Position numbers and translations under genes: made by a program. Below, in pieces: positions 11,922-28,828 of a stretch of DNA of 64,000 bases. Position 1 is the first letter of the stretch. Each line of letters starts with the position of its first letter. The DNA is taken from contig NW_013547005.1 of NCBI RefSeq assembly GCF_000711695.1, forward strand, positions 124,001 to 188,000. Direction: 5' to 3'. The stretch is from Tilletiaria anomala UBC 951 (Eukaryota; Basidiomycota; Exobasidiomycetes; Georgefischeriales; Tilletiariaceae). The notes under the pieces are model-generated. The model worked only from the letters and a program-made list of their open reading frames with translations. It did no database searches and had not been told where the DNA came from.

Positions 11922-14900
11922 TTATTGCGTCAAATCCTTTGCAGCGCCAGGCCTCTTAAGCGTCGGTCGCTGCACAGCAATGCTACCACCCCCTCGTGGC
12001 TTCTTGGCGGCACCGGTATCGCCCGGGCTGCCCGCTGCAGGAGTATCCTCAGCTTTGCGCTTGCCAACTCCGGCGGCCGCAGAGACTGCGCCTCCACGTC
12101 CTCGCCCACGCCCGACGGCACCGCCCCTTGTTGCCGGCTTGACCACCGCTGGAGCTGCGCCAGTTGTTGGCGACGCCGGTACAGAACCAGCACCATCGCC
12201 CGTGAGCGCCGAGCCTTTGCCTTCCGCGAGTTGAGCTTGCAAAGTTGCAATCTGCTTGTCCTTCTTCGATAGAACCAGCTTGTGTCGCAGCCCGGCCTCT
12301 TCTTTGCCTGCTTCAAACCTTGCCTTGAGCGCCTCCTCATGCTCTTTCGCCAGCTCGGCCGCCTTGGCTTCGACCGCAGCCTTGAGTGCCGCTTGACGTT
12401 CTTCTTCGCGTTGTTGCTCCACCTTCTGCAAGCGTGCCTGGACCTCAGCCTCCACCTTCTCAATGCTAGGCGCTGAAGCAGACTCAGCGGCAGCTGCGGT
12501 TGCTTTCTGGACCGCTTCCTCCACCGCCTGCGCTTGCTGCACGCTAAATTTGGTTGCCAGATTCGCCTCTCGTGCACGCAGCTTTTCGTCATGTTCTTTC
12601 TTCAGCTGCTCAATCTTGGCAGCATTGGCCGCTTTTATTTTGGGCTGCTCAAGCTCTGCAACCTCCTTCGCCTTCTTCACTTCCTCCTCGAGCTCAGCAA
12701 TGCGGGTCTGCAAAGAAGCGACGGTGGCCGCCGTGGCTGGGTCGCCACCTTCCGTGCCGCCCAGCTGTGTGAGTCGCTTGGTCACGGCTTCCTCAATGGC
12801 TGTAGCATTGGCAGTCGCTTGCTCTGCTTGTGCAGCCTTCAATGCTGCCTGTGCAGCATCTCGCTCAACCATTGCGGTGTTCTGTGAAATTGAACAAACG
12901 AGTGAGCCTCTGCATACGAATCAAAGTCAGCTAAGACGCACCTTCTCCTGTACTGCGGTCCTCGCCTTCGACAAGTGTTGCTGCTCCATTGTCTTCGCGG
13001 AGGTCGCGGCCTCGCTAAGAGCTCTCTTTTCTTCCTCCCACTTCTTCTCAGCTTCGGCTACGGCGTCGGCCACAGCGTTTGCAGAGGCGCCTCCCTCCAT
13101 TTGTTGCTGGGCTATCGATGCGGCTGCAGCTTGCAATGTACTGATCTCCTGTTGCAATTTGTTACTCTTCTCCTGCAGCTTCGTATTCTCCTCTTGTAGC
13201 CTTTTCACATCGGCCTGCACAGTGGAAAGCGATGCCTCGCGCTCCTTCAGGGCTTCACTGTCTTTTGACGCGTTCGAGACCTGCTCCTTGAGCCTCTCTA
13301 TTTCGGCCTGATACTTAGCAGCTTGGTCATTTCGCTCTTTAAGGCGTTCGATGGTCTGAGTACGTAACTTCGTGAACCGTTCTTCACCTTGAGCCTTGGC
13401 AGCCTCGAGTTCAACGACCTTTTTCTTCTCCTCTTCTGCCACTGCTTCTGCAGCGGTTGCGCGCTGTTCCAGCCGCTTGATCTCTTCGGGGTCGACTTGG
13501 TTGTACTGCTGCAGGATGGACTGCGCACGTGCTTGCCAGCGCTTGTTGTCCTCTTGCACCAATTTGAGTTGCGCCTGAAGAGACTCCAGCTCGACCTGTG
13601 TCGTCCGAAGTCTCTCGTTCAATGGCTCGATCTGTGCGGTTGTCGTGCTCAGTGCGGTCTCGAGCTCTCTCGCTCGCCTGTTGGCGCGTTCTGTCTCCTC
13701 GCGCAACGTCGCGTTGCTTTCGCGCAGGATGCTAAGCTGATTGACCTTGTCCAGAAGCTCGGCATGCTGCGCACTACTTTCAACTGTCGAAGCATTCTTC
13801 GAGCGCTCTTCAGACAATTGCATGTGCAACTCCCCCAGCGTTTGGTTGGCATGGTCAAGGGATTGTCGCAATCTGGCTGCCTCTTGCTTATTGAGGTTCA
13901 TCTGAAGCTCAGCAATTTCCTTCTCCCTTCGAAGATATTTGATCACCTCGCGAAGCTCTTCCATAGGCGAAGAGCTGAAACTTGTATCACCATCAGTCGA
14001 AGTCTCAGCTCTGGACTGAATGGCTGAGGCTTGGGAAGTGAGGGACTCAAGGCTGTTGTGCAGGACATTATTCTGCGATGTGAGGTCCTCAATCCGCTTA
14101 TTGAGGTCGAGTCGCTCTTTCTCAAGTGTCGACTTTTGCTCTTCCCAGCTGACCTGTGATGCCGTGAGATTGATTTGGACAGTCTCGACATCCTTCTGTA
14201 GCTCTCGTACCTGTGCTTCTGCGGACGCCAGCGTCGCTTTGACTTGAGTGAGGGCCTTGACGTCCTCCGCATGTAGCATGAGTTCTGCCTCATACTTGGC
14301 ATGAGCTGCACGTGCCAACTCGGCTTGCCTTTGCACGTCGCTGCGCAACACTTGTTGCTCAGAGCCGACGCGTTCCTCAAGGTTACTGAGCTGAGCGATG
14401 GCGTCTTCAAGCGTGCGCTTCTCGGCTGCGAATTCTGTGCGTTGCGCCTCAAGGTTTTGCCTTGCGATGCTGCCTTCGTCTTGCGCCGCTGTAAGCTCGT
14501 TGCTGATGGCCTCGATACGAGTACGCAGCACAGTGATCTCAGCCTGGTGAGGATGCTGGGTGTCAGCATCTTATCATGACAGTCGGAGCTGCCTTCAGGA
14601 CTCACATCTTTCTGAGCGACGCCTGCATCAGTCTCCGCTTTGAACTGATCATACGTGGACTGCAACTGTGCCAGAGAGTCCTCGTTTGCCTGTGCGATAG
14701 CCTTGTATTGCTCGACATGCGCTTTGGCTTGCTCCACCTCGACGTTCGCGTTGCGAAGCTCGCTGCGCAGTTCCGCGAGGGTGATCTCGAGCTCTTGCTC
14801 GCGGTTGCCCGAGCTGCCGGCAACATTCCTGCTGCTAGCGCCCGTGGAAGCTGCTGCACTGTGTCGCTCAAATACATCCAGCTTCTCCTCGCGAGCGGTC

Positions 14901-17900
14901 AGCTGCTTCTGCAGGTCGGCAGCCTTGGCTCTGAGGTGTGAAAGGGATGTATTGACGGCTGCAAGCTGTTCCTTTGCAGATGATGCCTCTGCCGTAGCCT
15001 TGTCCAAACGCGATTGCAAGTCTCGCGTCTCGACCTCCTTGCGCAGGGTGACCATGCGCGCTTCCTCTTCCTTCTTGCCGGCCTTGTCCCGCGCTGACCT
15101 GCTCTCTTCCTCGAGATGAGCAATCTGCGCCTCCATTCTGCGCCTGTGTTCAGATGCTGATCGTTCCATGTCATTATGAGTGTTGGAGATGTTGCGAAGG
15201 AGTTCGCTGAGGTTGGTCCGCTCAGCCACAACCGCGTGACTCTCCTCTAGCAGGCGTGACTCCGTACTCTTGAGCAAGTCCTTCTCCGCCCGCAGGTTCG
15301 CAGCTTCGATGCGCAGCCGCTCAAGCGAAGCTTTAACATTGAGCAGCTCCTCTTCTGTCTTGTGTGCCGCCATATCGCGACGCGCAAGGTTTTCTCGGAG
15401 GGTGCCCATGATCTTGTTGAGTTCGGCAAGTTCGCTCTTCTGCAAGTCAAATGTCTGCTGTAGAGTGCGGTAGCGCTCGTCTGTGGCCTCTCGGCTCGCC
15501 TTTTCGCGTGCCGCTTGGACAGCCGCTTGACTGGCTTGTTGGCGAGCATCGGCAACATCTTCCTTGAGCATTTCCGTGTCTTGCCGCACCTCGGCCTTGT
15601 AAGCTTCGAAATGAGCCTGCAGAGTCGAGTATTGGTTTGCAAGGCTTTGCGCCATCACGCTGCTACTTGTTGCATCCGTTTGACCTCCATTGACAGCAGC
15701 ACTGTTCGCACCGTTTGCAGTACGCGAGTTGATCATGGCGCGGAACATGTCCCTCTCGCGCTTCAGTGCCTCTGACTTCGACCGCTCCGCCTTGATTTCT
15801 TCATTCAGGTTCTCGATGACCTCGGCTGCTTCAGAGACAGCCTCGTTCTCGTTGTTCTCCAGCGCAGCTCTCAGCTTTTGCTCCTCCTGCTCAACCCTGC
15901 CAGCTAACTCGCGAGTGACGCGAAGCAAACGTTGGTTCTGGGCGAGGAGGTCGGTGAGAGAAGAGAAGGTGACAAGCTGAGTGGTGATGACTGCTTGCGT
16001 CTCATTCACTTCAGCATCGGAAGCGATCGGTTCTGGAATTGCACTGCCGTCGTCTTCTAGTCTCGATGCCGCCGAAGGGTCATCTCGAATGATAATCTCT
16101 CGGGTGAGGCTTCTGACTTGGCGGCCGAGGTCAGCCAGCTGTCGGTTGCCCAGATCGTTCTCCATTCGCAGTCGCTGCGCCTCGAGAGAGAGATGCTTGC
16201 GTTCGTTCTCGCTGACGTCTCTCTCTTCGCAAAGATTCGCAACACGCTCGCTCATCTCCTGGAGATCCTCCCGCAAGTGCTCGGTCTCTTCTCGCTGCGC
16301 CTGCAAGACAGGTTGGCGAACGCGGAGCTCCTCAAAGACTGTTTCCAGCACCTGACCCAGCCGTTGCGTTTCGAGACGTTCTCTGCGCAGCTCTTCTTGG
16401 GTCCGTGTGAAGTCCGCATAGACCTGTGTGAAGGACTTGCCTCCGCGCTGCAGTTTGCTGGCGAGCGCGGCAGTCGGTGACATGAGTAGCGAGGTGTTGA
16501 GACCCACGCCAGAGAAGCGCTTTGCTCCTGGTGTAGACGCTCTGCTGTTCTGGTCGAAGGAATCTAGCTCACCATTTTCTGCACCCCCCAGTGCGCCTCC
16601 TGAGCTGTCCACAATGCCCACACCTTCTGCCAGGCGATCCAACGCAAGCTTAAGATCTTCTTTCTCCTTCTGCAGCCCTGCGTTTGCATTTCTCTCCAAC
16701 TCGATCTCTTCCCGCAGCTTGTCCTCCCTCTCAGCGAACTCTTTGACCGCATCCTGCCAATGTGTATCGAGCTCGTGCTCGCGCTTCTGCGCATCTTTCG
16801 CGCGCTTCGTCAAGAGATCGTGCAGCTTGCTCTGCGTCGCGATCTCAGCTGCAAATGACTCCTCTTGGGCCGCAAGTCGCGTGGTGAGCTCTTGGATCCT
16901 GGATGCATTCTCATTCAAGCGCAGTGTCGCAGCAGAGTATGCGGCTTCAGCGTTGACCAATTTGGTGTTGGCTGAGGAAAGGTTCTGCTGAGCCGTGTCG
17001 AATGCCGATTGAAGAGCGATGAGCTCTGCCGACTTGTTGGAGCGGTAGGATGCTGCAGACTCTGTGATCGTCTTCAGCTCCGCGTGTGCCCACTCGGAGT
17101 CGCGGCGCACGAGTGCTAGCTCTTGCTCCAGCGATTGCACCTTGTACTGTTGGTTTGGACGAAGACTGTCAAACTCAAAAGACGCTAGAGACGTTTCCAA
17201 CCAGTGGCAAAGCATACCCTAAGATTGTTCTCGCTGCTCTTGGCCTCTGCCAGCTCTGATGATAGGCGAGTAACTTCACCACGCAACTCCGTCTGGCGCT
17301 CGGAGAGTAACTGCACTTCCTCTACTCGGCGTTACAAGGGTGTTATTCAGCATGCCGAACAAGATTCCAGCTTGTGTAGTTTCCTCACCTGAACGACTCG
17401 CGGAATCTGCTTTCTCGCGATCCAGAAGAGCCAGTAGGTCTCGTTTCTCCTGTTGAGCCGTAGCGATGCGCTGTTGGAGCTGCGTCTGGGCCTCTCCACC
17501 GGACTCGCTGGTTGATCGAGCAGCGTCCAGCTCCAACCTGGCCCCTTGGAGCTCTGATCTGAGCTTCTCCTGCTCTGCTTTGGCAGACAACGCATCCGTG
17601 GTTGCGACTTCGGCACGCTGCTCTGCCTCCGTCCGCGCTCGCTCAGCATCGTTCAGTGCGGTCTCAACCTCGATCTCGCGACGCGATGCCTCTACCCGCG
17701 TTGCTTCGAGCGCCTCTGCGGCCCCTTGCAGACTTGAGAGCTTTGTCGCGAGGAAGGTGTAAATAGCGACGATCAGGCCTGCATCGGGAGCGTTGATGCG
17801 CTGTGATGAGACGCTGCCTTCGATGTTACCGATGGATGCCAGCGATGCCTGCAGCGCGGTTACATCTAACGTAATAGGCAACGCGAGTGGCAGACGCTGG

Positions 17901-19267: not shown

Positions 19268-21419
19268 TCAAGGGCGCGACTCTAGCTTGACGCGCGGTGT
19301 CGTTTCATATTCCGTCTTGAAAGATGTTTCTGCCTTCGCAGTGCCGCTTGCGGCGCTTTCCACTGGCGTCGGCGCAAGGTACAGGTCCAAATGCATGCGA
19401 ACCAGCGTCGCAGCTCTGACCCGGTCGACCGGTACGCTCGCAAGTGCGTGTCGCAGCGCCACGGCTGTTCCCGAGCAAGTTGCACCGTAGCATGCGATGT
19501 AGTCCGCATCGTTCTTCTCGTACCCGCGGCCCAACAACTGATGATGTACCAGCTTCTTGATCGTTGTCCTGTTCTTCTGCTCCATGGTGTTGTAGGCGCT
19601 AGTGACAGGCATGGTGCCCGCTGAGCCCGCGTCCATGTCTACGCAGACTTCACGATAATGGCAGTGCGACATACCTTCGCGAAGCAGCTCAATGCTACTG
19701 GCCGCGCCCAAAACAGGCGAATCGGGACCGGGCGTCGCGGATGCAGCGCGAGAGGAGCTGCGTTTCGCCACTGGAATCGCGAGCTGAATGGTGTCTGCGT
19801 GACGCTTCCGTGATGGCGAAGCCGACGGGGACGTCTCACCCGCACCTGGGAGTGAGGACGAGTATGATGAAGGTCGGAGAGGATCCTTCCTTGGCGGCCG
19901 CTTTTCTCCCCTCCTGCCAGGGGTATTGCCCTGCTTGCCGCTTGTGGACAGCCCAGCGGCTATTGCGGAGCCAGAGCTGACGGTCTTCCGTGCAATGGTC
20001 GAGCGTGCACGCATGCCGCTGGCAGAGCTAAAAGCTGGGTTCACTCCGCCTCCGTCCGAAAGACTAGGAGTGCGATTCACGTCTGAGGACGAAGTGCTTG
20101 TTTTCAGAGACCCACTGCAAGCGAAATCGCTGCTCGAGAGGGCAGGGACATGCGGAACGGCAAAATTACCGACAGACTTGCTGGCAACTCTGCTCATGGG
20201 CTGACGCGGCCGGGTTTGGAGTTTTGTGATGAATGCATTTGCTGTGGGACCGATCAATTTTCCAAATTCAGCCTTATGTTTCGTCATCTCACCTTCATCA
20301 AAATCGACTCACTTCTTGGCATGGGGTCATCGGGACGGGGGGAGAAGGGGTGTCTGGGAAGGGCGCATGTCATATCTGAGCCAAAACCGGTATCGGCACC
20401 GTGTTTACGCGTGCGCGCCTTTCTGACCACCTTGCGTCCAAGAACGAGGTCAAGCGCATGTACGTGGCTCGAACACCGCGATGCGGCAAAAATTGCAAGC
20501 TCTTGGGCCGATGAGGATGAGGAAGCGCCAGACTGTAAAATGGGAAACGAGAAGTGTTCGGAGGAGGTGCGCGAATGGCTGGGACTGGGAAGTGCTTGGG
20601 ACGGCTCGAGGGACACAATGACGATGTTAGACGCATGTACACACGTCCCCCGACACAGCTGCAATAGAGGAAACCCCATTTCAGACTAGCCCCTGTAATG
20701 CTTCGCAGGCAGGATTTGTTCACTTCTTCATCTACGCAGAATTTTCTTACGAAGTAATCCAATGTTCGCTCCTCCTCTGGGTCGATGTACATCCGCATCC
20801 CGATGCTGTATTCCCACTTGACGATGTTTTTTGTGTCGCCACCATAACCAGTTGGCTTAGATTTCGAATAATTCCCTTCGACTACCATGCCTCGAGTATC
20901 CTTCTCCGTTCCGAGGATGCGAAGGGGTCGGTGTCGAACCATCTCGAGCGCCAAGCACAGGTCCGCCTCAATGGCCGGGTCGTCGATGACTTTGGTGGAG
21001 AGATCGTCGTCCTCGTCAACGAACCCAGGCCGCTGCACCTCTCTCGTGTTGGAAAACGGCCTGCCCTCGGATTCCAGCGTGACTGCACCGGAAGAGAGGG
21101 GGTGGCTGTGCGAGACAAAGGCCACGCCTGGCAAGGCAGTTCCGTCAGGGAGGAGAAGCGAGCCTCTCCATAGCAGCCGAGGTGGTGGTGGTCTCGAAGG
21201 CGTGCTAACCAGACTCACCCCTGAATTGCCTGGCGGAGGCGGCGATGCGAAACCTGCGACTGTCATCTTTTCCACTGCACTGCCTTGATTGTTCGAAAGT
21301 ACAGTTATTGAGGAGCGCTCGCCTGCGCTTTTGCTAGCGATGGCTGCAGCAAACGATGTGGCCGTTCTGTGAGGGTAGCAACCTGAACCAACGCGTTGAT
21401 TATGTTGGACATCCCTCAA
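19268..21419 (-). CDS. SLD7: Sld7-like replication-initiation protein (tentative)
   Basis: Two minus-strand frames seem to form one gene. The upstream frame (21419 to about 20724) contains RLLWRGSLLLPDGTALPGVA, a region ALEMVRHRPLRILGTEKD and MRMYIDPEEERTLDYF. The downstream frame (about 20287-19268) begins MTKHKAEFGKLIG, has a Ser/Pro/Arg-rich disordered middle and ends in a conserved-looking helical domain: NRTTIKKLVHHQLLGRGYEK, then YIACYGATCSGTAVALRHAL, then VRMHLDLYLA. This matches the plan of fungal Sld7 (N-domain binding Sld3, disordered linker, C-terminal dimer domain), which helps load Cdc45 at origins. Linking needs an intron of about 435-480 nt, long for this region, with donor at 20750 (GTAAGA) or 20723 (GTGAAC). 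Start is 21419 or the inner ATG at 21266. They could also be two genes. Confidence 0.5.
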
Positions 21420-21625: not shown

Positions 21626-24600
21626 ATGCCAATCCCAATATCCAAGGCGCCGGGGGACTGGCATCCCACGGCGTACCGCACGGTCGCCGCCGAGATGACA
21701 GGCACCCTCGACCTCGGCCCGTTTGCCCCTCAAGTGATCGACGCTCTGGTGCACGTCCACTTCTCCGTGTATGCGGCCATCGAGCGCTTAAAGCGGAGGC
21801 AAGGGCGCATGATGCAGCTTGGTCCGCGCTTCTTCTTGGACTTTATTCATCACTACGTCACCTTGAGCAACGAGAAGCGCGAGGCTCTGGAAGAGGAGCA
21901 GAGGCACTTGAATGTCGGCCTGGATAAGCTCAAGGAGACCGTGAGCGGCTAAAGAAGCATATCAGTTTTTTAAAGCGATCTAATAAGCCTCCTCATGCAA
22001 TTCGCAGGTCGATGCAGTATCCGAGTTGCAAAAGAATCTGGCAGTGAAGCGGACACAGTTGGAAGCCAAGAACAAGGAGGCCAATGAGAAGCTCCAACGA
22101 ATGGTCGCCGACCAGAAATCTGCCGAGGAACAAAAGCTCGCTAGCATTCAGATTCAGGGAAACTTGGAGAAGCAGGAGAAGGAGATCGCGGAGCGACGCG
22201 AAGTAGTTATGGGGGACCTGGCAGATGCCGAGCCGGCCGTCCAGGAGGCCCAAGCGTCCGTTAGCAACATCAAGAAGCAGCATTTGACCGAAGTCAGGTC
22301 GATGGGTAACCCTCCAGCACCGGTCAAGATGGCCATGGAGAGTGTCTGCATGATTCTAGGCCATCGCATAGACAGTTGGAAGAGCGTGCAAGCTGTGATC
22401 AGGCGAGACGACTTCATCGCCAGCATTGTCAACTTCGATACTGATCGCATGATGACCAAGGCTGTGCGCGAAAAGATGAAGCGCGAGTACCTTTCGAAGC
22501 CTGGCTATGACTTTGCCACGATCGATCGCGCCTCCAAAGCGTGCGGCCCGCTCGCAAAATGGGTCATCGCGCAGGTGCGTTTCTCCGAGATCCTCGACCG
22601 CGTCGGGCCGCTACGCGCCGAAGTCGACAGCTTGGAAGAGCAGGCGCAGGAGACGAAGCAGCAAGCGAATACGATCGTGGAAATGATCAAGGAGCTCGAA
22701 GGTAGCATCGTGCGATACAAGGATGAGTACGCTGCCCTCATCTCAGAGACGCAGGCCATCAAGAGCGAGATGGCGAGCGTGCAGCGCAGGGTCGATCGAT
22801 CGATCCAGTTGCTGGACAGTCTGGGATCGGAAAAGCAGCGATGGGAAGCCTCAAGTCGCACATTTGACACGCAAATGAGCACCATTGTTGGCGATGCGTT
22901 GCTTTCCGCTGCATTTCTCGCATATGCTGGCTTCTTTGATCAGCAGTACCGAGAGAACATGTGGGCGACCTGGGCAGATCATCTCTCGCAGGCCGGCGTG
23001 AAGTTCAAGCCAGAGCTGTCTTTTAGCGACTATCTTTCCACTGCCGATGACAGGCTCAGATGGGCAGACAAATCACTGCCGACGGATACGCTCTGCACGG
23101 AGAACGCAATCATGCTCAAGCGCTACAGCCGATACCCCCTGATCATCGATCCATCCGGTCAAGCGACGACGTTCCTGATCAACGAATACAAAGATCGCAA
23201 GCTCACTGTTACCTCTTTCCTCGATGATGCATTCTTGAAGAATCTCGAGGGGGCGCTACGCTTCGGCAACCCAATCTTGATCCAGGATGTAGAGCATCTT
23301 GATCCCATCCTGAATCCCATCCTCAACAAAGAACTGCGGCGAACGGGCGGTCGTGTCTTGATCCGGCTTGGCTCGCAAGAGATCGACTTCTCTCCGTCTT
23401 TCACACTGTTCCTGTCGACAAAAGATCCATCCGTCGAATTTCCGTCGGATGTCTGTTCCAGGGTGACGTTTGTCAACTTCACCATGACACGCTCAAGTCT
23501 CCAATCGCAGTCGTTGGACCAGGTGCTCAAAGCGGAGCGTCCAGAGACGGACCGAAAGCGAACAGATCTGATGAAGCTGCAAGGAGAATTCAGGCTCCGA
23601 TTGCGGCATCTCGAGAAGTCGCTCTTGAATGCACTGAACGAATCCCAGGGCAACATCCTCGATGATGACAAGGTCATCGACACCCTGGAGACTCTCAAAA
23701 AGGAGGCAGCAGAAGTTACACGCAAGGTTGAGGAGACGGACATCATCATGCAGGAGGTCGAAGACGTGACGGCCGAGTACCTGCCGCTAGCAAAAGCGTG
23801 CTCTGCGGTGTTTTTTGTGCTAGATCAGCTCAGCCTGATCTCGCATTTCTATCAGTTTAGTCTCCAGTTTTTCCTCGACATCTTTGACTACGTCCTCCGC
23901 CAAAATCCCCACTTGCAAGGCGTCAGCGATCCGAAAGAACGACTGCGCATGTTGAACAGGGACCTTTTCCTCATTGTGTTCCAGCGAACCAGTCGCGCTC
24001 TAGCACACGAGGATCACGTCATGCTTGCTCTACTACTCGCTCGCATCTGGAGACGCGAGAATGATCAGGACGATGCGCTTGAGTCCGCCGAGTACAGTTT
24101 CCTCTTGGAAGGCGACATCATCACCTCAGTACAGCAGCTCAGACTCCCTGGGCCGCTGGAAGCAGCGTTGTCTAGCGAGCAAAAGCAGCGTCTGACATAT
24201 CTCAAGCGCCTGCCGATCTTCAAGGAGATCGAGGCTCGACTCAACGACAATGTAGATTCCTTGCTTCGATTTATCTCGTCGGATCAACCAGAGACAGCCT
24301 TGCTTGAGCTGTGGGATGAATGTCCACGTGAGTACTTTCCGGAAGCATTTGCGTTCGGCCCTCCTGACTTTGCCTTCGATTGTTCTATTTCCAGCTGTGG
24401 TTGATTCGATCCGTCACCTCTTGATCATTAAGGCTTTGCGACCGGATCGGTTGGTCCCAGCCATGGGTGCGCTCGTGACATCGGTCTTTGGCACAGACCT
24501 GCTAAGCGAAACATCGTACGATCTGCAAAGTGTGGTAGCCAAGGAAATCGAAGCGGCCACGCCAATTGCATTGTGCTCAGTACCTGGCTTCGACGCGAGC

Positions 24601-26430
24601 TATCGTGTCGATGCACTCACGCGAACGACCGGGATTCGATGCATTTCAGTCGCCATGGGCTCACAGGAGGGCTTTGCGCTCGCAGACCAGGCGATCAATA
24701 TTGCGTCGAGGTCGGGACAATGGGTCCTTCTGAAAAATGTGCATCTAGCTCCCTCATGGCTTTCCCAGCTGGAGAAAAAACTCAGCGGAGCTATCATGAA
24801 CCGGCAGTTCCGCATTTTTTTGACCATGGAAACCAATCCGGTCATTCCGATCAACTTCTTGAGGGCTAGCCGCATCCTCATGAACGAGCCTCCACCTGGT
24901 CTCAAAGCCAACATGCTGGACAGTCTGCGCGGTCTTTCGCCTTCACGCCTGCAAAAAGGCCCAGCTGAGTCTGCGCGGCTGTTCTTTTTGCTCGCCTTCT
25001 TCCACGCGACGATCACCGAGCGCTTGCGATATACCCCACTCGGCTGGTCTAAAGCATTTGAATTCAACGACTCGGATGCCGAGGCAGCTCTTAACACGAT
25101 CGAGGCATGGCTCGGCCGCACGGCCAAGGGGCGGAGCAACATCGACCCCGCGAGCATTCCATGGGGTGCTTTGCGAGCTCTGCTGAAGCAGAGCATTTAC
25201 GGAGGCAAGGTTGACAACAATGCAGATCAGCTTCTTCTTGATACATTCGTGGACAAGATTTTCACTCCCGCGGCATACGAGAATGGCTTTGCGCTTGTGC
25301 GGGACACCAAAGCCTCTTTGCTTGCGCCGGAAGGCTCAAAGATGGATCAATTTATGGCCTGGGTTGAAGCGCTCCCCGACCAGCAGCCGCCAGAGTGGCT
25401 CGCGCTGCCGCCGAGCGCGGAGCGGGTCATCGCAACCGTGCAAGGTTCGAATCTGCTCAACAAGCTCGTGCGCATGCGCCAGCTTGCAGATGATGACGAG
25501 ACTGTGGACGCATCCACAGGGCAAAGCACTGCTGGCGAGGCCTCAACTCAACCTGCGTGGATGAAAGCGTTACAGGGAAATGTTCAGACCTGGTTGGAAC
25601 TCTTGCCGGAGAGCCTCGCTTCGCTCTCAGGGACGTCAGATGGGATGGCCGATCCGCTACAACGGTGAGCCGGTTCGCCGCACACACGCTTGTCTATTAA
25701 GTCTGCTGACTGATTTTTTGCCCTCCACAGCTTCTGGGCGAGGGAGCATCGCTCTGGCACTGGCCTTCTTTCGCGCGTGCGAGCCGATCTCTCCGAAGTC
25801 GTCTCAGTGTGCACCGGCCAAAGTCGGCAAACGAACCACAATCGGTCCCTACTAAACGACCTTCCCAAGGGCATCATCCCTGCATCGTGGAGTGTCTATG
25901 CGGTCCCAAAGTCGATGCTGCTCGGAGCTTGGATTGCGGACCTGGCTCAGCGTCTGCAGCAGCTTTCAGAGGTCTCGAAAGAGACTCGTCTGGAGGCCTT
26001 CTCCGTGCAGCTTGGCCTCCTCTTCTCTCCTGGAGCGTACATGACCGCCACACGCCAGGCGGTCGCCCATCGAGCAGTGGTCAGCCTGGAGCACCTTCAA
26101 CTCGATCTCAAGATCAACGAGCAGCCTGGCGGTGCGGGCGGATTTGCGCTTACCGGACTTAGGCTCGACGGAGCGACCTGGACCGAGGGCCGACTGGAGC
26201 TCAACGATGGAGCGACCGTATATCTGGACACTTGCACGCTCGTCTGGCAGCCGAAACCCGACGGCGCGCTGTCAATCCCCATTGGCGCCCTTGGGTCCGG
26301 CACGGTGCCCATCTCGGTCTACCTCAATGCAGATCGCAGCAACCCATTGTTCAATATTGCACTTCCTACGCGGAGAGACGAGGATCCGTCCGCATTTGCG
26401 CAACGAGCAGTTGCCCTGAGAGCCGCGTAA
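21626..26430 (+). CDS. DYN2: cytoplasmic dynein heavy chain, C-terminal half only (Dyn2 type)
   Basis: Four exons (21626-21940, 22008-24327, 24395-25664, 25731-26430) give 1534 residues, about a third of a full heavy chain of over 4000. The protein opens at the end of AAA4 (GDWHPTAYR), then FFLDFIHHYVTLSNEKRE leads into stalk helix CC1 (residues about 80-200). The microtubule-binding domain follows (NPPAPVKMAMESVCMILGH near 206; YDFATIDRASKACGPLAKW), then stalk CC2 (about 300-380), AAA5 with degenerate P-loop IIDPSGQATTF, AAA6 (DLQSVVAKEIEAATPIALC) and the C-terminal domain (SVYAVPKSMLLGAWI, VQLGLLFSPGAYMTATRQA). The ATP-hydrolysing AAA1-4 and tail are absent, and an opposite-strand gene sits immediately upstream, so they cannot be in this transcript. 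It must pair with a separate Dyn1-like polypeptide, as in Ustilago maydis. Introns are 66-67 nt. Confidence 0.93.
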
Positions 26431-27127: not shown

Positions 27128-28828
27128 ATGCTGCGGTTCGCGGGGACGAGCTTTATGCAAGGCCTGCTGGGCCCCGGCGCCTGGCCTCGGCGGCCCTTTG
27201 CGCCGCGGATACAAGCTGCGCTCTCGTATCCTTGCAATTGTCGAGCGCCTGCTCAGAGCGCATCCCACTTCAGGCGAGCTTACTCGCATTCAGCTCCTTT
27301 GAAGAAGAGTGATTCTGACGCGATCCCGGCACTGAACTATGGAGATATACCGTATGATGCAGCAGCCGCACTCGACTCAGATGGCCGGATACCAAGCATG
27401 CCGTACGTCCCGGACACATTGCCAGGCACCGCAACCGAGTATAATGCACATATCGTTGTCCACCCGTACTCGCGACCACGGCCTCAGCTATCCTGGCCTG
27501 CGAGTATCGAAAGCGTCAGCCCGCTGATGTCAGAGCTGGGTAGTCGCTGCAAACAAGGCTCCAGCCTCGAAGGCTACGGTGTCAGCTTTTCTAGCGGAGA
27601 GCTTGGCGAACAAGTCGGCTTGCCAGATCTGTTTCCTCACTGGGACAACCAAACGCCAAAATTCATGCGGCCGGTGCCGGGACACGAGTCGGTTGACGAA
27701 CAGTTCTTGCTCTATGTATACCTACCACCTGGCAGATTCGCCACGGTGGGGCCATTATCGTTGGAGACGTTGGACGAAGACAAGCTCTTGCAGGACAAGA
27801 TCATAGATGCACTAGCATCAGCAAAGCCGCAGACAGCGAAGCGCAAGCCTGAGGATGAGGCGCACATCTACGTTTGTACGCACGGCATGCGCGACTGTCG
27901 CTGCGGTGTCGTCGGTGGCGCCCTGATGCGCTCACTCAAAGAAACGTACGACCAAGAGAACGCCACGAGCGGTAACAGTCTTAAATCCACTAAATTTTTC
28001 GCCATCTCCCATGTTGGCGGGCACAAATGGGCTGCCAACGCTCTCGTCTATCCGCATGGAGATTGGTATGGTAATCTGCGCGAGTACGATGCAGCGCTGC
28101 TCTTGCGCGCCGCGCAGGCGCCCGCATCGAGCATGCACGATTTGCAGGACATGCGCGAGCGCATGGTCCATTGGAGCCGATGGCGCGGTCGGCTTGGTTT
28201 GTCTGCTGATAAGCAGAGAGAGCACTATGACCAGTGGGGTCCACCGCTCATGCAAACTGCCATCATCAAACCCGCTGTGCGGGTCGGAAAGCTCGGCCGC
28301 TCGTCCGTGGCGGCTTCTGCTGCTCGGAAGCCTACATCTGATGCCTTGACAGCAAGTCCAACGTCACACATCACAGTCGCAGAAATGAGTGTGCCCTTGC
28401 GTTTCCGCTCGTACGAGGGAGAATGGTTCAATGTCAAGGGTACAATCGGAGAGACGCTGAAAGACGTGGCCAAACGCCACAACTTGCCATCCATCGAAGC
28501 GACCTGCGGTGGAGAGTGTGAATGTGCGACGTGAGTGACTCATGACTGGCGATTCTCCATGTGAGGGATCCTGACACACTGCTCTCTTTTGACCTCAAGA
28601 TGCCATGCATACTTTGCAGCTCCCGGCGATAACGTTGACGCCGTAGGCAATCTAGACACCGAGCCCCCGACGTTGATTATCGGCGATCTACAAGACGAGG
28701 AGAACGACATGCTCGATTACGCCATCACACGCAAACCGGCCAGTCGTTTAACTTGTCAAGTCAAGGTGACCAAAGAACTCAGCGAGTGGATGAAGAAAGG
28801 CGGGCGTATCGAGTTACCTCGATTTTAG
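27128..28828 (+). CDS. mitochondrial sucrase/ferredoxin-like (Aim32 family) protein fused to an adrenodoxin-type ferredoxin
   Basis: Two exons (27128-28530, 28600-28828; intron 69 nt) give 543 residues. The basic N-terminus ending in FRRAYSHSA looks like a mitochondrial presequence. Residues about 150-330 are a sucrase/ferredoxin-like (thioredoxin-fold) domain with CTHGMRDCRCGVVGG (near 250) and ISHVGGHKWAANALVYPHG (near 295). These are the Cys and His signatures of Apd1/Aim32 proteins that bind a [2Fe-2S] cluster. Residues about 420-543 form a second, adrenodoxin-like [2Fe-2S] domain: Cys460, Cys466, Cys469 (C-x5-C-x2-C) and Cys520, with EENDMLDYA and SRLTCQVKVTKEL, as in Yah1. The C469-C520 gap is longer than in typical adrenodoxin. 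A protein with two different Fe-S domains suggests intramolecular electron transfer in mitochondria; that role is inference. The intron falls between the second and third cluster cysteines of the ferredoxin. Confidence 0.87.

Follow-up and report, generated by a model that had tools for sequence, protein, structure and literature searches.

A dynein heavy chain gene that holds only the back of the motor raises two questions, namely where the front is encoded and what has become of the AAA module at which the chain is cut. Such a gene lies in a 64,000-nucleotide stretch of the basidiomycete Tilletiaria anomala UBC 951 (Ustilaginomycotina, Exobasidiomycetes, Georgefischeriales; assembly GCF_000711695.1, contig NW_013547005.1, positions 124,001 to 188,000 of the forward strand; hereafter, the window), and the locus is very probably dyn2, the gene for the C-terminal part of a cytoplasmic dynein heavy chain that is produced as two separate polypeptides. 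In Ustilago maydis, the heavy chain is encoded by two genes, Dyn1 and Dyn2 (Straube et al. 2001 EMBO J 20:5091, as cited in PMC4540427 and PMC7373426), both of which are reported to be essential and whose proteins are reported to be in one complex (as cited in PMC4540427). The T. anomala Dyn1 and Dyn2 are already annotated in public databases, and the split itself is not new; the present analysis adds the break at the level of residues and a change specific to AAA4. At the level of sequence, it establishes two single-copy genes, their exact ends, the recurrence of these ends in relatives, and a set of AAA4-specific substitutions.

The spliced DYN2 product is identical (100% over 1534 residues) to the deposited T. 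anomala protein "cytoplasmic dynein heavy chain 2" (P0001), and the solved structures that score best against it are cytoplasmic dynein 1 heavy chains. No tail or AAA1-AAA3 family was matched in the product by the Pfam search. The initial annotation of the locus, in which a spliced product of 1534 residues comprising the stalk, AAA5, AAA6, and C-terminal domain was proposed, is borne out by the exon structure, the Pfam matches, and the identity to P0001. It was also right that the tail and AAA1-AAA3 are missing, but not that the whole of AAA4 is, because the small subdomain of AAA4 is present in Dyn2. For the same reason, the start that it placed immediately before stalk helix CC1 has to be moved: Dyn2 begins at the boundary between the large and small subdomains of AAA4, and the small subdomain precedes CC1. 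An in-frame stop codon starts 12 bases 5' of the DYN2 ATG, so that a start further upstream is impossible without a 5' intron.

The front of the chain was sought by searching the T. anomala genome (18.41 Mb, 202 contigs) for dynein domain families. As the initial annotation had anticipated, a Dyn1-like gene ending in AAA4 was found elsewhere, on contig C1 (G000:C1 235664-245472, + strand; five introns), which supports the identification of the locus as dyn2. Splicing yields a product of 3153 residues that matches the database protein "putative cytoplasmic dynein heavy chain 1" of T. anomala (P0122) without a difference and contains the tail, the linker, AAA1, AAA2, AAA3, and the AAA4 large subdomain, the Pfam family AAA_8 (D4) being matched only over model positions 2-187 of 259. 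The MT, Dynein_C, and AAA_9 families each have one genomic match, all at the DYN2 locus, and DHC_N2 (linker region) has a single match, on contig C1. AAA_7 has one strong match, also on contig C1, and three weak ones (E-values 9.4e-5 to 3.3e-4; contigs C65 and C29), two of which reach the family cut-off together with their neighbors; this family also has matches in 12 of 14 prokaryote control genomes. Neither a second copy of either dynein gene nor a complete heavy chain, which the initial annotation had named as a finding that would overturn its reading, was found by this domain-family search of the genome. The front and the back of the chain are thus encoded in separate genes with no complete gene beside them, and by their Pfam content Dyn1 and Dyn2 jointly provide the complete cytoplasmic dynein-1 set, that is, tail, linker, six AAA modules, stalk with microtubule-binding domain, and C-terminal domain. 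Intron 4 of dyn1 (G000:C1:245245-245307) is apparently of the GC-AG type, with the donor GCGAGT, and the deposited 3153-residue protein agrees with this splice. In Ceraceosorus bombacis, the records of Dyn2 (P0011) and Dyn1 (P0269) both give one and the same contig of 834941 bases as the longest, so that there, unlike in T. anomala, the two genes seemingly lie on one contig.

The two chain ends locate the break within AAA4, rather than between AAA4 and the stalk as first claimed, and the module is shared by both chains. Where uninterrupted chains read SPALFNRC-VLDWF-GDW, T. anomala Dyn1 ends SPALFNRC-TLLYCW, six residues past SPALFNRC, and Dyn2 starts MPIPISKAP-GDW, nine residues ahead of GDW. 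The junction is read through in all 187 unsplit proteins compared (some of them fragments), in 182 with the exact sequence and in five with one change. Alignment to a solved chain of 4092 residues, the length stated for yeast dynein (PMC7683685), pairs positions 2-183 with 2733-2914, and a hand count without gaps puts the FNR arginine of Dyn1 at position 2911 of the yeast chain and the P-loop residue of AAA4 at 2766. Since the boundary between the AAA4 large and small subdomains is given as 2916/2917 by Schmidt et al. (PMC4047620), the aligned sequences place the break on, or a few residues from, that boundary, just past the FNR arginine.

The same two ends recur in relatives, for which the initial annotation had suggested a comparison. 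Among the 40 best Dyn2 matches, 38 start shortly before GDW, 33 of them with 8-13 residues and five with 17-73; the two remaining models start farther along. Among the matches listed, 22 of the 24 Dyn1-type proteins have the SPALFNR junction and stop 6-10 residues after FNR, this group having been selected for an end no more than 40 residues from the junction; the models P0248 and P0251 lack it. In the same set of matches, the split was found in Tilletia, Exobasidium, Microstroma, Jaminaea, and Ceraceosorus, which we take to be Exobasidiomycetes, and in Testicularia, Sporisorium, Kalmanozyma, Pseudozyma, and Violaceomyces, which we take to be Ustilaginomycetes; no Malassezia protein is named among the matches listed, at most 120 per search. 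A single old split is the simplest account of the shared ends, and by their distribution the split arose before the sampled Exobasidiomycetes and Ustilaginomycetes diverged. The earlier statement that the locus dates the split within its own lineage was therefore too weak: the ends are common to both classes, and an AAA4 split across the Ustilaginomycotina has already been published (PMC4540427).

What distinguishes the split proteins beyond their ends is the AAA4 site. The AAA4 large segment could be aligned in 234 of 331 proteins (22 split, 211 unsplit, and P0248). In P0248 and 22/22 split proteins, arginine stands in place of the Walker A lysine; the unsplit proteins have lysine in 199 cases and lack the stretch in the remaining 12. 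Two residues after the Walker B glutamate, glutamine stands in all 22 split proteins and P0248, and asparagine in 211/211 unsplit ones. The Walker B aspartate and glutamate, the sensor 1 asparagine, and the FNR arginine are kept in every one of the 22, and the Walker A threonine is replaced in four of them (alanine in three, glycine in one). On the Dyn2 side (36 of the 40 best matches, the ones longer than 1440 residues that have the GDW start), sensor 2 is arginine in 36/36 proteins, and the AAA5 arginine is conserved in 34, with lysine in the other two. Elsewhere in Dyn1, the AAA1 lysine and glutamate, the AAA2 lysine, and the AAA3 lysine and glutamate are unaltered in 24/24 proteins, so that the P-loop lysine is present throughout AAA1-AAA3, while AAA4 has arginine in 23 of the 24 and a gap in one. 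Judged by these residues, the chain is an atypical member of cytoplasmic dynein-1 by its AAA4 lysine alone and has all the other defining features that were tested. The split and the arginine are both present in every sampled split protein that covers the AAA4 site. A sequencing or annotation error behind the arginine is ruled out for T. anomala by the CGT codon in its genomic DNA and by the recurrence of the arginine in relatives. As a separate observation, the unsplit models with a gap at the P-loop lysine are P0257, P0259-P0261, P0263, P0264, P0266, P0267, P0270, P0301, P0304, and P0319; six of these, viewed in sequence, miss exactly VSGSGK, which may reflect a false or a real 18-base intron, and P0273, another Rhodotorula toruloides model, is not among the twelve.

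The wider pattern of substitution was examined from AAA1 to the chain end by scanning for clade-fixed positions, those at which at least 90% of the clade shares a residue that is very rare in other proteins and at least 97% of the others agree on one residue. The input of 24 Dyn1 and 167 unsplit motors yielded nine such positions in the Dyn1 part. Eight fall in the AAA4 large subdomain, among them the Walker A lysine and the Walker B neighbor; the ninth is in the AAA3-4 connector, and AAA1-AAA3 have none. Five control clades, Agaricomycetes (74 sequences), Tremellomycetes (16), Pucciniomycotina (27), Mucoromycota (18), and the Mortierella group (16), have 5, 3, 1, 3, and 8 fixed positions in the Dyn1 part overall, and only a single one of the five has any in the AAA4 large subdomain (counts 0, 0, 0, 0, and 1). 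Among eligible positions, 8 of 142 in the AAA4 large subdomain are clade-fixed versus 1 of 534 before it (Fisher p = 2.4e-5, a guide only, the sequences being related), and split proteins depart from the conserved residue at 28.7% versus 4.5% of eligible positions, respectively. The Dyn2 part (36 proteins, scanned without control clades) has five fixed positions, three within the first 31 residues and the others at residues 113 and 1115.

Divergence measures agree. Identity to other fungi (40 sampled sequences) in the AAA4 large subdomain is 64.8% for the split clade and 90.1-92.7% for the five controls. The corresponding values are 77.7% against 77.1-78.6% for AAA3, 67.7% against 67.8-70.0% for AAA2, 72.7% against 77.8-79.5% for AAA1, and 59.4% against 74.5-80.0% for the AAA3-4 connector; the AAA1-AAA3 regions include the small subdomains and the AAA4 region does not, so that each module is to be compared across clades and not with other modules. 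Within clades, identity in the AAA4 large subdomain is 73.0% in the split clade and 94.8-97.3% in controls, compared with 83.1% and 84.6-92.8% for AAA3, 76.2% and 78.5-90.2% for AAA2, and 76.2% and 87.1-93.6% for AAA1. In Dyn2, the AAA4 part ahead of the stalk has 48.9% identity versus 70.7-77.1% in four controls, and the other five regions fall inside the control range or at most 2.4 points under it. FastTree trees of the AAA4 large subdomain give the split clade a stem of 0.258 and a mean crown depth of 0.360, whereas in three controls (two of them not monophyletic in the tree) the stem measures 0.006-0.034 and the depth 0.025-0.044. The clade is ordinary in the trees of AAA3 (stem 0.033, depth 0.233; control depths 0.107-0.258) and AAA2 (stem 0.114, depth 0.349; control depths 0.181-0.492), and its crown is deeper in that of AAA1 (0.460 versus 0.115-0.330). 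Two Wallemia proteins, in which the chain is split elsewhere, retain 88.4% identity in the AAA4 large subdomain, the same comparison giving 93.0% for Tremellomycetes and 65.1% for the split clade. Together with the five control clades, they rule out that AAA4 is simply a variable module. By these comparisons, AAA4 appears remodeled in the split clade, with AAA2 and AAA3 normal and AAA1 somewhat divergent too. No earlier report of this remodeling was found in the open-access literature, the scope of the search, which did not extend to subscription papers, including Straube et al. 2001.

How the two proteins might form one motor follows from where each ends. Dyn1 would supply the tail, linker, AAA1-AAA3, and the AAA4 large subdomain, and Dyn2 the AAA4 small subdomain, stalk with microtubule-binding domain, AAA5, AAA6, and C-terminal domain, the two chains probably meeting at AAA4 to close one ring. 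We assume that the FNR arginine of Dyn1 is the AAA4 arginine finger that serves the AAA3 site and that the DVCSR arginine of AAA5 is the expected finger of the AAA4 site. If these roles hold, Dyn1 by itself contains all of the AAA1-AAA3 sites, and among AAA1-AAA4 only the AAA4 site would be put together from parts of both chains. The predicted two-chain ATP site thus coincides with the sole loss of a P-loop lysine among AAA1-AAA4, in a subdomain very strongly conserved across other fungi. Our tentative first choice is that AAA4 has moved past its ancestral ATP cycle and now most likely holds nucleotide without normal turnover, as a joint between the chains, because the lysine has become arginine while the Walker B acids, sensor 1, and sensor 2 are kept. 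AAA4 would then be locked near a permissive state and thereby be able to hold the two chains together; for comparison, AAA2 and AAA3 are described as being held together by the ATP at AAA2 (PMC4047620). A 2020 study reported that yeast dynein needs AAA4 for its motion: the K/A mutant, in which ATP binding is blocked, was immobile, and the E/Q mutant, in which hydrolysis is blocked, moved only slightly more slowly (PMC7683685). It is possible, but doubtful, that gene fission in this subphylum made AAA4 a non-cycling, nucleotide-bound clamp between two polypeptides of one ring and that dynein in these fungi moves without the AAA4 gate that has been described as essential in yeast. A lineage in which AAA4 is naturally altered and shared by two chains offers a direct test both of the role of AAA4 and of the way two chains can make up a force-bearing ring.

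Several points weigh against a nucleotide-holding joint. The AAA4 large subdomain is diverse within the clade (73.0%, versus 83.1% for AAA3), which fits decay as well as it fits a refitted joint; the within-clade diversity of AAA1, above that of the controls, indicates that the clade is not purely normal outside AAA4; and the Walker B glutamate is retained although a dead site would not need it. A wholly empty AAA4 would be expected to be harmful, given the contrast between the yeast K/A and E/Q mutants, and no test of arginine at the AAA4 Walker A position was found in that study (PMC7683685). The alternative that survives best, and a serious contender, is that AAA4 is decaying, its ATP cycle having been lost after the cut, with an empty pocket and substitutions that reflect relaxed selection without a new role. 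The divergence of the AAA4 large subdomain far above control clades, in stem and crown alike, and the replaced Walker A threonine in four of 22 proteins are what decay would produce, but the conservation of the Walker B acids and sensor 1 in all 22, of sensor 2 in 36/36, and of the AAA5 arginine in 34/36 is not, and the lysine position has settled on one residue, arginine, rather than scattering. Alternatively, AAA4 could still be a normal regulatory ATPase that works with arginine, the divergence being only co-adaptation of the chains at their contact surface. The conserved Walker B glutamate, sensor 1, sensor 2, and AAA5 arginine agree with this, as does the divergence of the Dyn2 small subdomain, which an interface predicts; we nevertheless consider it unlikely, since the lysine is otherwise invariant (all 199 unsplit proteins with the residue) and lysine-to-arginine changes in P-loops usually impair hydrolysis. 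Trans-splicing of the two transcripts into one full-length message is highly improbable, as the in-frame stop soon after FNR and the short-leader start before GDW recur in relatives, and the U. maydis proteins are reported in one complex (Straube et al. 2001 as cited in PMC4540427). That the locus is a truncated duplicate, a pseudogene, or an assembly break of a complete gene, which the absence of about two thirds of the chain from the locus might suggest, is effectively ruled out by the single genomic place of each of four domain families, by the position of the Dyn1 stop and Dyn2 start inside contigs of 463 and 228 kb, and by the recurrence of both ends in relatives.

Compared with known split dyneins, that of T. 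anomala resembles the U. maydis system in its two genes, its break inside the fourth AAA module, and its division into a front two thirds and a back third; it differs in belonging to another species and order (Georgefischeriales). Brunsch et al. (2015) described the Ustilaginomycotina split point as conserved within AAA4, Malassezia globosa excepted, and as one of three independent splits in the Basidiomycota (PMC4540427); relative to that account, the acceleration found here is mostly local to AAA4. In Agaricomycetes and Wallemia, the heavy chain likewise comes from two genes with the break elsewhere, namely in the tail for the Agaricomycete Dhc1/Dhc2 and between AAA1 and AAA2 for Wallemia (PMC4540427), and the AAA4 large subdomain is near normal in both (91.9% and 88.4%), unlike in the T. 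anomala clade. In the models of Wallemia Dhc2 P0043 and P0044, the first residue lies within the AAA1 large domain, past Walker B but ahead of sensor 1 (by eye, against P0125), so that the main ATPase site seems to be cut in these two proteins.

Features of the DYN2 gene and its product in the window; window coordinates of Pfam domains were derived by hand from the exon structure
Feature	Window position	Strand	Description
DYN2 gene	21626..26430	+	four exons; product of 1534 residues
Exon 1	21626..21940	+	ATG, leader MPIPISKAP, GDW, first part of AAA4 small subdomain; residues 1-105
Intron 1	21941..22007	+	GT-AG, 67 bases
Exon 2	22008..24327	+	most of stalk and microtubule-binding domain, AAA5; residues 106-878 and part of 879
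Intron 2	24328..24394	+	GT-AG, 67 bases
Exon 3	24395..25664	+	AAA6 P-loop domain, lid, start of C-terminal domain
Intron 3	25665..25730	+	GT-AG, 66 bases
Exon 4	25731..26430	+	remainder of C-terminal domain, TAA stop
Stalk and microtubule-binding domain	21908..22973	+	Pfam MT, residues 95-427; crosses intron 1
AAA5 large domain	23058..23717	+	Pfam AAA_9, residues 456-675; contains the DVCSR arginine
AAA6 P-loop domain	24553..24876	+	Pfam Dynein_heavy, residues 932-1039
Lid		+	Pfam AAA_lid_11, residues 1073-1220
C-terminal domain	25441..26418	+	Pfam Dynein_C, residues 1228-1531; crosses intron 3

Upstream of dyn2, two open reading frames (ORFs) on the opposite strand (window 19268-21266, -) may form one spliced gene. 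The initial annotation had placed an intact opposite-strand gene here; an ORF is indeed present, with its first ATG at 21266 (-) and 359 bases between it and dyn2, but that it is an intact gene is only plausible, as this nearer ORF has no Pfam match. The farther ORF (19268-20287, -) has a sub-threshold match to Sld7_C. Also in the window are a nucleoporin TPR-like protein at 13943-17215 (-) and a sucrase/ferredoxin-like protein at 27128-28534 (+).

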